Origin: a virus
DNA length: 27,464 nt
IMG/VR virus record: IMGVR_UViG_3300025141_000592
Location: 1-27,464 of that record
Reading direction: 5' to 3' (one strand)
Shown here: positions 16,315-24,506 of the stretch, piece after piece
Numbering within the stretch: the stretch's first letter is position 1
Layout: every line of letters starts with the position of its first letter
Translations under genes and position numbers: made by a program
The notes under the pieces: model-generated
Told to the model about the DNA's origin: nothing
The model's database searches: none
Seen by the model: the letters and a program-made list of their open reading frames with translations, nothing else

Positions 16315-16467
16315 ATGGCAAAAAAGAAAATCGTAAACAGAAACACAGGAGAACTAATATCAACAAATGAACTAATATCAACACTTGTTGAATTACAGAA
16401 TAAGTTAAAAGAACTAATTAACTATAAAGAAGCACTTGAAAAAGAACTAGAAGCTAGAAAAAAATAA
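16315..16467 (+). CDS. Small early protein (50 aa), N-terminus shared with the next gene
   Basis: ATG 16315, preceded by an A-rich leader, opens 50 codons: MAKKKIVNRNTGELISTNEL, then a short coiled coil (LVELQNKLKELINYKEALEK) and a basic end. It is the first gene after the host-type promoter. Its KIVNRNTG stretch recurs at the start of the next gene, and the DNA is 24/25 identical (16327-16351 against 16518-16542). A stable hairpin follows the stop. First-expressed small phage proteins are often host-takeover factors, but nothing here shows a function. Confidence 0.65.
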   Translation: MAKKKIVNRNTGELISTNELISTLVELQNKLKELINYKEALEKELEARKK

Positions 16468-16508: not shown

Positions 16509-16748
16509 ATGAAATACAAAATCGTAAACAGGAACACAGGAGCAACTTACTTCTTAAACTCACAAGAATATGCAACATTTGTGCAAAGAAACAGCTTTTT
16601 CAAAGATGGTGTTTGTCAATATGACGAATACAATTTAACTAAAGAGAAAGCTAGAAGAAGAAATAAGATGTTAGACCTAGTTGCTCACTTGTGTATAATA
16701 GGAGCTTCAATCTTAGGTACTTTACTTTACATTCAAAACTACTGCTAA
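16509..16748 (+). CDS. Small early protein with C-terminal membrane segment
   Basis: A 79-residue protein starting MKYKIVNRNTGATYFLNSQE, followed by a basic stretch (KEKARRRNKMLD) and a hydrophobic C-terminal helix (LVAHLCIIGASILGTLLYI). It would be anchored in the inner membrane with its N-terminus in the cytoplasm by the positive-inside rule. It shares KIVNRNTG with the preceding 50-residue protein. Function is unknown. An early inner-membrane protein could act in superinfection exclusion, but that is only a suggestion. Confidence 0.6.
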   Translation: MKYKIVNRNTGATYFLNSQEYATFVQRNSFFKDGVCQYDEYNLTKEKARRRNKMLDLVAHLCIIGASILGTLLYIQNYC

Positions 16749-17820: not shown

Positions 17821-18141
17821 ATGGAAGTAACAGGAACAGTATTAAGAAAACTTGAATTAGAAACAGGAGTATCTAAAGCAGGTAAAGAATGGAAGAAGCA
17901 ATCAATAGTAATTGATACAGGTAACGACTTTAATAATGAAATATGTGTTAGTGCCTTTGGTGATAAATTAGAGCAAATGAACAAGCTAGAAGTAGGTATG
18001 GATGTATCAGTTCTTTGTAATGTTTATTCAAGAGAATACAATGGTAGATATTTTCATAATATAGATGGCTACTTTTTTACTAATCAGAGTAATAAATCTT
18101 CAGACAAAATACAGAATGGAGAAGAAGATATGCCTTTTTAA
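17821..18141 (+). CDS. SSB-like OB-fold protein (DUF3127 type)
   Basis: A 106-residue protein matching the DUF3127 pattern: MEVTGTVLRKLELETGVSKA, GKEWKKQSIVIDTG, then EICVSAFGDKLEQ and SREYNGRYFHNIDGYFF. It has a flexible linker and the C-terminal tip EEDMPF. OB folds bind single-stranded DNA, and an acidic tip ending in PF is the partner-binding tail of bacterial SSB. It would coat ssDNA at the fork and recruit replication proteins. Neighbouring DnaA-like, initiator and nuclease genes fit. Confidence 0.75.
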   Translation: MEVTGTVLRKLELETGVSKAGKEWKKQSIVIDTGNDFNNEICVSAFGDKLEQMNKLEVGMDVSVLCNVYSREYNGRYFHNIDGYFFTNQSNKSSDKIQNGEEDMPF

Positions 18142-18142
18142 G

Positions 18143-18652
18143 ATGAATACAGAAGATAACTTTAAAAACCTTTGCGACCTTACTACAAATTTAGTAGGGT
18201 TGCCTAAAGGCTCTCTAGCTTTAAAAACTAGAAAGACAGAATACCAAGTACCTAGAATGGTAGCAGCTATGATTTCAAGACTTGAAGATAAAACTCATAG
18301 GGATATAATTGCTAAAGTATTGGATAGAGATAGAACAAGCGTGAACCATTACGAAAGGTGTCACTCATCTAACTACTCATCATTCCCTTTGTATCGTGAT
18401 ACATTCAACAAAGTATTTAACGCTTATACGGAACTCAAAGACGCTAAATTAACTTTTATTGACTTGTTTAATTTACAGGAACATCTAAGAAAAAACGGCA
18501 TACACGATAGCTCAAAACATCAGACTACTATCCGTATTAGTACAGGTAAATTTAAGATAGCTGTAAATGTTTCTTACAAAGACTTCTATAATCAATTAGA
18601 ATTATGTAAGTTAGCCCTTCAAAATTATCAACACGAAATAGAAGTAATATGA
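18143..18652 (+). CDS. DnaA domain IV-like DNA-binding protein
   Basis: The start chosen is ATG 18143, just after the SSB-like stop; an earlier in-frame ATG (18065) lies inside that gene. The 169-residue protein carries residues about 10-75 resembling the DnaA C-terminal domain: TRKTEYQVPRMVAAMISRLE, HRDIIAKVLDRDRTSVNHYE. The RDRTSVNH segment corresponds to the RDHSTV-type recognition helix that reads DnaA boxes. The AAA+ domain is absent; the C-terminal half is mixed alpha/beta and unrecognised. It may bind origin sites or compete with host DnaA. It overlaps the initiator gene by 4 nt. Confidence 0.6.
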   Translation: MNTEDNFKNLCDLTTNLVGLPKGSLALKTRKTEYQVPRMVAAMISRLEDKTHRDIIAKVLDRDRTSVNHYERCHSSNYSSFPLYRDTFNKVFNAYTELKDAKLTFIDLFNLQEHLRKNGIHDSSKHQTTIRISTGKFKIAVNVSYKDFYNQLELCKLALQNYQHEIEVI

Positions 18653-19293
18653 AAGAAAAGCCAAGTTACTATGCCATTATCCCTGCTCAGGTGAGATATG
18701 CAAAAGAATTAACTCCTAACGCTAAATTACTTTATGCAGAGATAACGGCTTTGGCTCAAAAAGATGGTTCTTGTTGGGCTAGTAATAAATACTTTTCAGA
18801 GCTTTATAATGTATCAACAGTAACAATAAGCAGATGGATAAGCAGCTTAGTTGATAACTCCTTTATTATTAGGAAGATAGTTTATAAAAAAGGTACTAAA
18901 GAAATTGATAAGAGGTATTTACAATTAAGTCAAGAGGGTATTAACAATAATGATAATACCCCTATTAACAAAATTGTTAAAGATAACAATACAAGTATTA
19001 ATAATACAAGTATTAATAATATATCTATAAGGGAATTAAAATTTATTAATGATGTTTCTTTATTTGATTATGATAAAAATATTTTAGATAGTTTTACAGA
19101 TTATTGGACTGAGCCTAATAAATCTAAAACAAAAATGAAATTTGAACTTTGCCAAACTTGGGAAACAAAACGCAGACTAAAGACTTGGGCTAATAATCAA
19201 AAGAAATGGGATAAACCTAAGTCTAATAAAAAAACAATGAGTAAGTTAGACGCACAAATTAATGAATGGCAAAAAGCAAAAGAATTATTATGA
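18649..19293 (+). CDS. Winged-helix replication initiator-like protein
   Basis: A 214-residue protein. Residues about 1-85 form a helix-turn-helix/winged-helix domain (YYAIIPAQVRYAKELTPNAK, LLYAEITALAQKDGSCWASN, YFSELYNVSTVTISRWISSL) of the type in phage replisome organisers and plasmid initiators. A low-complexity Asn/Ser/Ile linker at about 96-125 is encoded by DNA packed with palindromes and direct repeats, a probable origin. The C-terminal part (SFTDYWTEPNKSKTKMKFEL, TWETKRRLKTWANN) is a pattern I associate with phage replication proteins such as those of DnaD type. It would bind the origin and recruit the host helicase. The ATG overlaps the upstream stop (ATGA). Confidence 0.7.
   Translation: MKEKPSYYAIIPAQVRYAKELTPNAKLLYAEITALAQKDGSCWASNKYFSELYNVSTVTISRWISSLVDNSFIIRKIVYKKGTKEIDKRYLQLSQEGINNNDNTPINKIVKDNNTSINNTSINNISIRELKFINDVSLFDYDKNILDSFTDYWTEPNKSKTKMKFELCQTWETKRRLKTWANNQKKWDKPKSNKKTMSKLDAQINEWQKAKELL
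18936..19022 (+). other. Putative replication origin inside the initiator gene
   Basis: Within 87 nt there are GGGTATTA / TAATACCC (18936-18943 and 18954-18961), TTAACAA-AA-TTGTTAA (18965-18980) and two 15-nt direct repeats, 18985-18999 and 19000-19014, each containing the palindrome AATAC-AA-GTATT. Very AT-rich DNA follows. Iterons plus an AT-rich segment in the linker-coding part of an initiator gene is the arrangement of lambda O. Origin function is inferred. Confidence 0.5.
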
Positions 19294-19469
19294 CAGAAAA
19301 AGAATTTTATAATTTATTGTTAGATGAATTAAATGAAATGCAGGATTATATATTATGTCCTATGGATATATTAGATACTGTTGAGGATTATATAGAACAT
19401 CATATAGATAAAGAAGTTAATAAAAGATTAGATGAAATGGACGATACAATAAAAAAAATTGAATTATGA
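19290..19469 (+). CDS. Small acidic helical protein (59 aa)
   Basis: The start is ATG 19290, overlapping the initiator stop (ATGA), rather than the ATG at 19266 inside that gene. The 59-residue product is acidic and helical (FYNLLLDELNEMQDYI, VEDYIEHHIDKEVNKRLDEM). No family is recognised. Tight coupling to the initiator suggests a replication accessory, perhaps a loader or inhibitor, but nothing in the sequence proves this. Confidence 0.5.
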   Translation: MTEKEFYNLLLDELNEMQDYILCPMDILDTVEDYIEHHIDKEVNKRLDEMDDTIKKIEL

Positions 19470-19834
19470 AACCATTAAAACAAGAAAACCTAAAAGATCT
19501 GACTGAAAAAGTCCTAGACTTAGTTGCTAAGACTTCAGTTGAAATAGGACACAGATCAGACGCACAGACTTTAGCTTCACTATCTAAAATATTTGCTGAG
19601 GACTTAATACAAGAAAAGCGTTTCGGTAATATGACTTTCAACCAAGTTCAGGACGCATTTAGACAGGGCGTAAGATTTGGAAAAGACGAACCCTTTTTAA
19701 ATATCAGAACCTTTTACAAGTGGGTGTATGCTCAGAAGAAGTTAGTAGACAATGCCTACTATGAAGTTCACACTTTAGGAAAGCCAAAGGATAAGACCTT
19801 ATGGTATCAAGAACCTGTAAAGCTATTAAGATGA
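19466..19834 (+). CDS. Conserved replication-region protein (122 aa)
   Basis: A 122-residue, mostly helical protein (NLKDLTEKVLDLVAKTSVEI, LASLSKIFAEDLIQEKRFGN, VQDAFRQGVRFGKDEPFLNI, RTFYKWVYAQKKLVDNAY). I recall similar proteins next to initiators in Bacteroidota phages and prophages, where they may act with the helicase, but no family name is certain. The start overlaps the preceding stop, and the stop overlaps a 19-residue membrane ORF (ATGA). Confidence 0.55.
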   Translation: MKPLKQENLKDLTEKVLDLVAKTSVEIGHRSDAQTLASLSKIFAEDLIQEKRFGNMTFNQVQDAFRQGVRFGKDEPFLNIRTFYKWVYAQKKLVDNAYYEVHTLGKPKDKTLWYQEPVKLLR

Positions 19835-20807: not shown

Positions 20808-21164
20808 ATGATAGAACCAATTTATGCAAGTACCGAACATAAGTTTATAATCCAAAGCTATATCAATATGACACTAGAGTTCGTAAAAGATATTGCAACA
20901 CCAACCAAGTACAATAACTATTTAGAAGTATTTGAAATAATAATTGAATATCACAACGGATATGGTAAAGGCGTAAGAGAAAATAACTTTTACGATTGGA
21001 TTATGATAATCCCTATAAACTTATCAGTTATGACTAATGGGTTCTTTGCAGGAATTGAAACAAAGAGAAACGCAACAATAATAAGGTCGTATAAAACAAT
21101 ACTAAACGAGATACTTCAGGAAACAGTAGATAAGATAGAAACTTTAGAAATGACAAATGAATGA
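20808..21164 (+). CDS. Hypothetical protein (118 aa)
   Basis: A 118-residue, mostly helical protein (FIIQSYINMTLEFVKDIATP, YLEVFEIIIEYHNGYGKGV, YKTILNEILQETVDKIETLE) without recognised motifs. A TAAGTTTG string at 20796-20803 just before the ATG resembles a host -7 box, but the spacing to the nearest TTG is too short for confidence. It overlaps the sigma-like gene by 8 nt and may be coregulated with it. Confidence 0.5.
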   Translation: MIEPIYASTEHKFIIQSYINMTLEFVKDIATPTKYNNYLEVFEIIIEYHNGYGKGVRENNFYDWIMIIPINLSVMTNGFFAGIETKRNATIIRSYKTILNEILQETVDKIETLEMTNE

Positions 21165-21711
21165 AATATATAAAGTAATTGCTGACTGTAGGAGTGAGTT
21201 TGAAAAGATGTGTTATGGTTTAACTACTGACAAAAACACAGTAGATGATGCAGTACAGGAACTTATGATTTATATGCTTCAAATGAATCCTGAAGTTTTA
21301 TCTAAAATATATACAAAAGATGGTAAAGAAGGTTTAATAAAGTATGGAGCAGTTGCATTAAGAAGAAGTCTAACAAGTGTAAGAAGTGCTTACTATTATA
21401 AATACGACAAATACTATACACATATTGACGAACTAACAAGCACTTTAACTTACGAATACAAAAATACATCTGCTAAAGACCTTTACAACCTGCCTAATGA
21501 AGTTTTAGATGTTTGTAAGTATGAGCAACTAGAAAGTATAGATAACACCTTAGACGGCTTGTATTGGTACGACAGAGCTATATTCAAGTTATATTACTAT
21601 AAGGGAAAGACTTTATCAGGACTTGCTGAAGAAACAGGAATAAGTAGAAACAGTCTTTTCACTACAATAGATAAAGTAAGGGAAATACTTAAAAAGGAAT
21701 TGAATGAATAA
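21157..21711 (+). CDS. Sigma-70-family-like (ECF-type) transcription factor
   Basis: A 184-residue protein with the plan of a small sigma factor. The N-terminal part contains DAVQELMIYMLQMNP, like the region 2 helix DxxQExFxxl, plus LIKYGAVALRRSLTSVRSAY. After a variable middle, the C-terminus WYDRAIFKLYYYKGKTLSGL, AEETGISRNSLFTTIDKVRE looks like region 4, with a helix-turn-helix for promoter recognition. It would direct host RNA polymerase to phage promoters; the repeated CTATTATATANTA element is the obvious candidate target. A small HTH DNA-binding protein without sigma activity is the alternative. It is packed between overlapping genes on both sides. Confidence 0.6.
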   Translation: MNEIYKVIADCRSEFEKMCYGLTTDKNTVDDAVQELMIYMLQMNPEVLSKIYTKDGKEGLIKYGAVALRRSLTSVRSAYYYKYDKYYTHIDELTSTLTYEYKNTSAKDLYNLPNEVLDVCKYEQLESIDNTLDGLYWYDRAIFKLYYYKGKTLSGLAEETGISRNSLFTTIDKVREILKKELNE

Positions 21712-23256: not shown

Positions 23257-23850
23257 ATGAAACAACAAGTTAAGATAAGTAAAGTAAAGGGAAACCCTGA
23301 CAATCCTAGAATAATTAAGAACGATAAATTTAAAAAGCTAGTAAAGTCAATACAAGAGTTCCCTGAGATGTTAAAGTTAAGACCAATTGTAGTTGATGAA
23401 GAAATGGTTGTCTTAGGTGGTAATATGAGATTAAAGGCAAGTAAAGAAGCAGGACTTAAAGAAGTATGGGTAGAAGTAGCAGAAGGATTGTCAGAAGAAC
23501 AAAAGAAAGAGTTTATAGTTAAAGACAATGTAGGGTTTGGAGAATGGGAATGGGATATGTTAGCTAATGAATGGGATAGTGTAGAACTTGCAGAATGGGG
23601 TTTAGATGTATGGCAGAATGAAGATGATATTGAAACAAGTGATGAGTTTAGTTTACCTGATGGGGATAAAAGCAACTTAGAGCAAATAACATACACGCTA
23701 AGTAGTGAGCAAAGCAATATAATAAAAGAAGCAGTACAAGAAATAAAACATACTGAGGAATACAAGTATGTAGAAACTTTCGGAAATGAAAATAGTAATG
23801 GTAACGCTTTATATTTATTAATACAACAATGGGTAGGGCAAAAGAAATAA
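23257..23850 (+). CDS. ParB/sulfiredoxin-fold nuclease-like protein
   Basis: A 197-residue protein. Residues 1-80 carry the ParB N-terminal pattern: NPDNPRIIKNDKFKKLVKSI, LRPIVVDEEMVVLGGNMRLK, ASKEAGLKEVWVEV. The GGNMR motif is the CTP/phosphate-binding GxxR region. The middle region EFIVKDNVGFGEWEWDMLAN, ELAEWGLDVW resembles sequence that follows this domain in phage ParB-methylase proteins, but the methylase itself is absent. The C-terminus is acidic and helical. In phages such proteins are linked to DNA modification; the overlapping Mom-like gene supports that here. Segregation is less likely, as no ParA is seen. Confidence 0.7.
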   Translation: MKQQVKISKVKGNPDNPRIIKNDKFKKLVKSIQEFPEMLKLRPIVVDEEMVVLGGNMRLKASKEAGLKEVWVEVAEGLSEEQKKEFIVKDNVGFGEWEWDMLANEWDSVELAEWGLDVWQNEDDIETSDEFSLPDGDKSNLEQITYTLSSEQSNIIKEAVQEIKHTEEYKYVETFGNENSNGNALYLLIQQWVGQKK

Positions 23851-24506
23851 TAGTAAAAGTTATAACAAGTAAAGTTGCTAATGCTTTTGTAAAGAAACAA
23901 CACTACTCAGGTAAGGTTGTTCCTAATAGTACTTTACATTTTGGTTGCTTTTTAGATAAGCGTTTACACGGAGTAATGAGTTTCGGACCTAGTATAAATA
24001 AAAAGGGAACAATTAACTTAGTAGAAGGAACAGGTTGGAATGAGTTTATTGAATTAAACCGAATGGCTTTTAATGACTTTCTTCCTAAGTATAGTGAAAG
24101 TAGATGTATTAGTGTTGCTATGAAATTAATAAAGAAAAACGCACCTCACATAAAATGGGTAATTAGTTTTGCAGATGGAACACAATGTGGAGATGGAACA
24201 ATATACAGAGCAAGTGGTTTTAAGTTGGTTGGTATTGCTGAAAATACAGCTTTAAGAATAAACCCTAAAACCCTAAAACCAATGCACATAATACAAGCAC
24301 ACCATTTAAAAATGAGTAGTGAGTTTAGAAATTGGAAAGCTTATGAAGGTTATCAGTTAAAATATATATATTTTATTGATAAGAAAATGGAAAGTAATTT
24401 AACAAAGCCAATTATTCCTTTTAGCGAAATAGATAAAATAGGTGCAGGAATGTATAAAGGCGAAAAGATAACATTAAAAGAAAGAAAAGAAAATAAGCGT
24501 GATTAG
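23829..24506 (+). CDS. Mom-like DNA-modification acyltransferase
   Basis: A 225-residue protein resembling the phage Mu Mom family, a GNAT-fold enzyme that modifies adenines to N6-carbamoylmethyl-adenine. Seen: NAFVKKQHYSGKVVPNSTLH, FGCFLDKRLHGVMSFG, FIELNRMAFNDFLPKYSESR (the E-L-x-R motif), ISVAMKLIKKNAPHIKWVIS, then FADGTQCGDGTIYRASGF. Acetyl-CoA-type binding is expected from the fold. It would protect phage DNA from restriction. It overlaps the ParB-like gene by 22 nt, indicating coupled expression. The last codons overlap the 5' arm of the tRNA-like gene. The assignment is by motif only. Confidence 0.65.
   Translation: MGRAKEIIVKVITSKVANAFVKKQHYSGKVVPNSTLHFGCFLDKRLHGVMSFGPSINKKGTINLVEGTGWNEFIELNRMAFNDFLPKYSESRCISVAMKLIKKNAPHIKWVISFADGTQCGDGTIYRASGFKLVGIAENTALRINPKTLKPMHIIQAHHLKMSSEFRNWKAYEGYQLKYIYFIDKKMESNLTKPIIPFSEIDKIGAGMYKGEKITLKERKENKRD

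Follow-up and report, generated by a model that had tools for sequence, protein, structure and literature searches.

The stretch of DNA analysed here (the window, 27,464 nt) constitutes the whole virus record. The features that concern us belong to a replication gene cluster and to the repeats embedded in it.

17,821-18,141, + strand: DUF3127 / single-strand DNA-binding-like protein of the same replication cluster (Pfam, 1.1e-23; phrog_4932, 1e-17)
18,143-18,652, + strand: gene with weak similarity to DnaA domain IV (Bac_DnaA_C below cut-off)
18,649-19,293, + strand: replication initiator gene, 214 aa, with an HTH_36 winged helix at about residues 20-93, a disordered linker at 98-120 and a C-terminal domain at about 120-214 (Pfam HTH_36, PHROGs, AlphaFold2 model)
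18,820-18,834, + strand: codons V58 to R62 of the recognition helix (strongest residue-base couplings, hold-out, predicted helix 57-69)
18,936-18,961: inverted pair GGGTATTA (18,936-18,943) / TAATACCC (18,954-18,961), with G- and C-type cores, read from the sequence
18,941-18,956: iteron 1, imperfect dyad TTAACAATAATGATAA, two mismatches to the dyad
18,965-18,980: iteron 2, perfect dyad TTAACAA-AA-TTGTTAA, 24 nt from iteron 1, proposed initiator dimer site
18,984-19,021, + strand: 15-nt element TAAYAATACAAGTAT in 2.5 tandem copies, proposed unwinding element
19,014-19,100: very AT-rich stretch (15% GC) adjoining the repeats

The gene at 18,649-19,293 is identified as a replication initiator by Pfam HTH_36 (E 1e-13, 51.3 bits against a cut-off of 25), a family matched by 38/38 aligned relatives, and by the PHROG replication-initiation profiles phrog_19658 (3.2e-28) and phrog_270 (2.3e-22). 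The 'O-like' profile phrog_678 gives a distant match across residues 7-204 (6.9e-10). The Pfam lambda O domain is absent both from the initiator (E up to 0.1) and from the 25 families listed for its relatives. Pfam RepA_N does not match the window initiator either, whereas the Rep of plasmid pUSA03 scores 2.5e-32, and a PDB sequence search with the initiator returned no relative. In the AlphaFold2 model, helices at 46-53 and 57-69 are followed by strands at 73-79 and 86-93, a disordered stretch at 98-120 and a helical C-terminal part. Foldseek with the predicted winged helix retrieved 4pt7, 4pql and 5kbj (best E 2e-3, TM with respect to the target up to 0.49); the top matches for this predicted fold, at E of about 2e-3, include the N-domain of a plasmid RepA_N initiator and a Rep-DNA complex.

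The original prediction also pointed to a DnaA domain IV-like protein encoded directly upstream. The neighbouring gene is there, but its Bac_DnaA_C match is sub-threshold (E 0.0014, 19 bits against 31.5), and copies 75-95% identical to it stand beside all three N-terminal types of initiator described below. It therefore provides no evidence for this origin in particular. On the other side of the initiator, the gene at 19,466-19,834 encodes a 122-aa protein of unknown family, which is 80-98% conserved beside all initiator types among the relatives listed.

The repeats lie where they had been reported earlier, as read from the sequence and also found independently. The three types of symmetrical element described at that time do exist, but the pattern is more regular than three types would imply: it consists of two dyads followed by 15-nt repeats. 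Both dyads are in one register, 24 nt apart, and each is preceded by a GGG or CCCC core, with the 15-nt repeats coming next. The two full copies of the latter, TAACAATACAAGTAT (18,984-18,998) and TAATAATACAAGTAT (18,999-19,013), are identical at 14/15 positions, and a partial third copy extends to 19,021; AATAC-AA-GTATT occurs at 18,988-18,999 and at 19,003-19,014. The AT-rich DNA said to follow the repeats was likewise found, and a GC content as low as the 15% of 19,014-19,100 is seen in only 0.28% of 87-nt windows. The repeats encode residues 96-125 of the initiator, a predicted disordered stretch, and the view that this part of the protein is a linker agrees with the disorder at 98-120 in the AlphaFold2 model.

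As a null model for the cluster, residues 96-125 were re-coded synonymously 5000 times following the codon usage of the phage itself. The summed length of inverted arms reached the observed value in 6/5000 re-codings and their number in 1/5000. Taken singly, the longest arm is nothing exceptional (640/5000), and the tandem repeat stands out less clearly (73/5000), since the encoded peptide is itself repetitive. When 2738 sliding windows of 87-90 nt are ordered by total arm length, the repeat site comes first, and for close symmetry the cluster is the strongest in the window. Its 15-nt array has the top Tandem Repeats Finder score (69), the exact dyad TTAACAANNTTGTTAA occurs a single time, and the 15-nt element is confined to this site, all within the window. 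The GC skew of the window is monotonic, with no inflection at the repeat site, and is uninformative because nearly all genes are on one strand. DnaA boxes number two in the window, which is the chance level, and none is near the repeat site.

Scanning viral contigs, we obtained 80 loci with related initiators. Absence of the repeats from related phages with the same initiator would have spoken against an origin, and the comparison found them present. To separate DNA from protein constraint, we used a codon-degenerate search whose pattern admits every codon of NNTSINNTS, which yielded 57 distinct initiator contexts. In the downstream 15-nt repeat of these initiators Thr is encoded by ACA in 114/114 cases and Ser by AGT in 107/107, whereas matches in unrelated frames have mixed codons. 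Among 41 initiators with N-domain identity below 75%, the element uses ACA in 36/36 and ATT in 34/34 instances, although the choice of anchor somewhat favours ACA in this count and the codon-degenerate search is the cleaner test; at other conserved positions of these genes, from 2 to 6 codons are in use. One gene of Lactobacillus phage LJ contains two identical copies of the 22-mer GGGTATACCGAAAAATCGGACA, 23 nt apart, in frames 0 and 2. Constraint on the protein cannot produce such a two-frame arrangement.

Initiators of the relatives are mosaics, in which we distinguish three N-terminal types, N1 (that of the window), N2 and N3. Each has its own DNA element in the linker: TACAAG in N1 (27 distinct), ACTAAT in N2 (21) and AATAAG/C in N3 (13). 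The C-terminal types, on the other hand, are common to different N-types (DYWTE in N1 and N3, DFYESK in N1 and N2), and at the loci listed the flanking genes have 75-98% identity between N-types. Since every N-type retains a linker element of its own and the C-terminal types and flanks are shared, the DNA-binding domain moves with its linker DNA as one cassette, domain and repeats being swapped together. The N3 loci, of which L035:3047-3763 is an example, have an unrelated N-terminal domain (LLSSSAFL type), with AACTAGTT palindromes and the AATAAG/C array in the linker, and might possibly represent another type of embedded origin.

In relatives of the window initiator, a CCC or GGG core is followed by an 18-nt segment carrying a dyad in fixed register (i+j=19), and the distance from this segment to the 15-nt element is nearly constant. 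The upstream dyads change in sequence while symmetry is kept: the arms read TTAACAA in the window, TTGAC in Staphylococcus phage 77 and Enterococcus phages, ATGGAC in one further locus (L133), CATGAAC in Ceridwen and CCGA in LJ. Pairing in the fixed register is 0.73, compared with 0.49 for arms exchanged between sequences (0/2000). By centre, it is 0.66 at this one and 0.17-0.37 at others. The 15-nt element is constant whereas the dyads vary, which suggests that it may be recognized by some invariant component of the machinery or in single-stranded form. This two-part layout, dyads and then the 15-nt element, is found in phages and prophages of Bacteroidota, Bacillota, Fusobacteriota and other phyla.

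We then asked which residues go with which bases, comparing 88 protein columns with six arm positions. The strongest coupling is between residue 62 (R62) and position 6 (z 14.3), and the next between residue 58 (V58) and position 4 (z 11.0). Both pairs remain the top two at redundancy cuts of 90%, 75% and 60%, and the two residues, four apart, both lie on the predicted recognition helix 57-69. Rules learned on 68 sequences were applied to held-out prophages from GTDB genomes, each less than 90% identical to the training set, with the dyad register set by a rule blind to both helix and dyad. V/I58 went with A or E/R58 with G in 23/24 cases, and R62 with C or K62 with A in 26/28; for neither rule were any of 10,000 permutations as good. 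At a 70% redundancy cut the counts are 16/17 for residue 58 and 19/21 for residue 62, such cuts lessening shared ancestry while part of it remains. Two of the hold-out misses, L343 and L344, resemble register errors. The pairings would be chemically sensible, with Arg62 contacting the G opposite C, Val58 the T opposite A and Glu58 the C opposite G. Taken together, these correlations suggest that two initiator amino acids read two bases of the site in relatives across many phyla.

Several known systems have a comparable organization. The lambda origin lies in the middle of gene O and consists of initiator-bound inverted-repeat iterons with an A-tract, and of an AT-rich region (PMC7466680). In lambda and its Stx-phage relatives, as in the window, inverted-repeat iterons are followed by an AT-rich tract in the central part of the initiator gene (PMC7466680). 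The differences are that the window protein is of the HTH_36 family and has only a distant O-like PHROG match, that the window has two clear dyads whereas lambda has four iterons (four to six when relatives are included), and that the AT-rich element of the window is a tandem 15-nt one. In contrast to lambda, no separate P-like gene was identified in the window. The kinship of the window initiator with lambda O, judged by these matches, is thus distant. RepA_N plasmids such as pSK41 carry their origin within rep, in the stretch encoding the linker (PMC5703833). They resemble the window in the winged-helix N-domain, in the origin inside the rep linker region and in a separable C-terminal domain, but the likeness to the window protein is one of predicted fold only, without a Pfam RepA_N match. 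The rep gene of pUSA03 carries 23-nt iterons and then a 15-nt AT-rich array. It had been considered as an example of the pPR9-like type, as it is named in PMC5703833, and was set aside because it is RepA_N at the position read. The pPR9 initiator is a hybrid with an HTH_36-like domain on a RepA_N C-terminus and, like the window initiator, has this N-domain, internal repeats and then a 15-nt array of the TTAATAATAC type; its mini-replicon replicates autonomously, according to a review (PMC5703833). It differs in being very distant in sequence, its domain giving no significant match to that of the window, in an HTH_36 score below the cut-off and in having another iteron sequence. Tandem arrays of 15-nt AT-rich units come after internal iterons at L350:601-650 and L354:19387-19431, in a RepA_N and an HTH_36-like plasmid initiator; the 15-nt period is common to three initiator types.

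The lactococcal P335 phages BK5-T and ul36 have a homologous N-domain (33% identity) and iterons in the same register as the window, but another AT-rich repeat (of the AATAAATCA type) and another C-terminal domain. In the BK5-T record, the depositors marked a repeat region where the iterons lie; a paper on the BK5-T origin was not found in the literature searched. Staphylococcus phage 77, Lactobacillus phages LJ and c5, and phages of Enterococcus, Fusobacterium and Cellulophaga share the N-domain family and the two-part linker layout of the window, whereas their dyad sequences are phage-specific; none of these sites is marked as an origin in the records seen.

Could the repeats be simply a by-product of an Asn/Ser/Ile-rich, low-complexity linker duplicating by slippage? 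The peptide does repeat itself (NNTSINNTSI), and the tandem repeat alone goes only mildly beyond the synonymous null, at the 73/5000 given above. Nevertheless, synonymous codons are frozen in relatives, LJ reads identical DNA in two frames and the arms co-vary with the recognition helix, so we reject a pure protein-repeat reading as highly improbable. Nor do mRNA hairpins acting in attenuation or stability appear to account for the palindromes. Predicted folding is better than that of shuffles (z -3.35) and arm changes are compensatory, yet base pairing does not predict coupling to two residues of a recognition helix, the 15-nt element is kept in sequence beyond what pairing alone needs, and an Rfam search matched no family. 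This reading, too, was rejected, its probability being very small.

The residue-base coupling points to DNA binding and is silent on its purpose. Hence, the initiator might bind its own gene mainly as an operator to limit expression, with the origin elsewhere. We regard this as quite unlikely: the sites are deep within the coding sequence, an AT-rich repeat array comes after them in relatives, and the layout matches that of experimentally supported origins (PMC7466680, PMC5703833). Binding to the dyads could also serve autoregulation in addition to replication. Finally, the boundaries between N- and C-terminal types fall at the linker, as would be expected if the repeats were a recombination joint that lets phages exchange initiator domains. 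But swapped domains bring different linker elements, and the dyads go with the DNA-binding domain instead of being common across types, which leaves this explanation with hardly any likelihood on its own. The roles of joint and origin might, of course, coexist.

The layout, the identity of the initiator, the repeats in relatives and the co-variation between residues and bases all agree, and the original prediction of a lambda O-like origin inside the initiator gene is very probably correct. The sequence itself shows the identity of the gene, the repeats, the constraint at DNA level, the co-variation of the dyads, the coupling of residues to bases and the swapping of cassettes. From these we consider it highly likely that the 87 bp are the phage replication origin, embedded in the linker-coding part of the gene for the phage's own initiator. 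HTH_36 winged-helix dimers would bind the dyads at 18,941-18,956 and 18,965-18,980 through helix 57-69, V58 reading base pair 18,967 and R62 base pair 18,969 together with their symmetry mates. Bound initiators would open the 15-nt AT-rich repeats (18,984-19,021) and the adjoining 15% GC stretch, the C-terminal domain would recruit the helicase machinery, and replication would start at the 87-bp site.

Taken alone, the proposed origin is an unremarkable case of an established class, alongside those of lambda O, RepA_N plasmids, BK5-T and pPR9. Two things go beyond this class, namely the proposed residue-base code and the occurrence of the two-part layout across phyla; no description of a two-residue code or of the widespread 15-nt element was found in the literature searched. 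It is tempting to speculate, and on the present correlations we think it rather probable, that a common code operates in HTH_36 initiators of several phyla. Within an 18-nt dyad segment, base 4 would be A or G depending on whether residue 58 is V/I or E/R, and base 6 would be C or A depending on whether residue 62 is R or K; a shared 15-nt unwinding repeat would come next. The gene alone would then reveal where the origin lies and what its specificity is, and the DNA-binding domain and origin would form one swappable cassette. Most phage and prophage origins are, to our knowledge, unmapped. If the code is true, sequence would suffice to locate the origin of any phage with this common type of initiator and to predict the compatibility of that origin with others. 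The relatives would also offer a set of naturally matched initiators and sites in which to follow how replicon specificity changes when protein and site are in adjoining parts of one gene.

Several other features of the window deserve mention. The gene at 23,829-24,506 encodes a Mom-like DNA modification protein (phrog_1384, E 1.7e-47), and the adjoining ORF at 23,257-23,850 looks ParB-like, by eye only. Weak similarity to sigma factors or regulators was detected for the ORF at 21,157-21,711 (phrog_36, 5.7e-6; phrog_1740, 2.6e-5). A 31-nt direct repeat, 90% identical between 16,321-16,351 and 16,512-16,542, lies over the start of the ORF at 16,509-16,748 and resembles a duplicated gene start.
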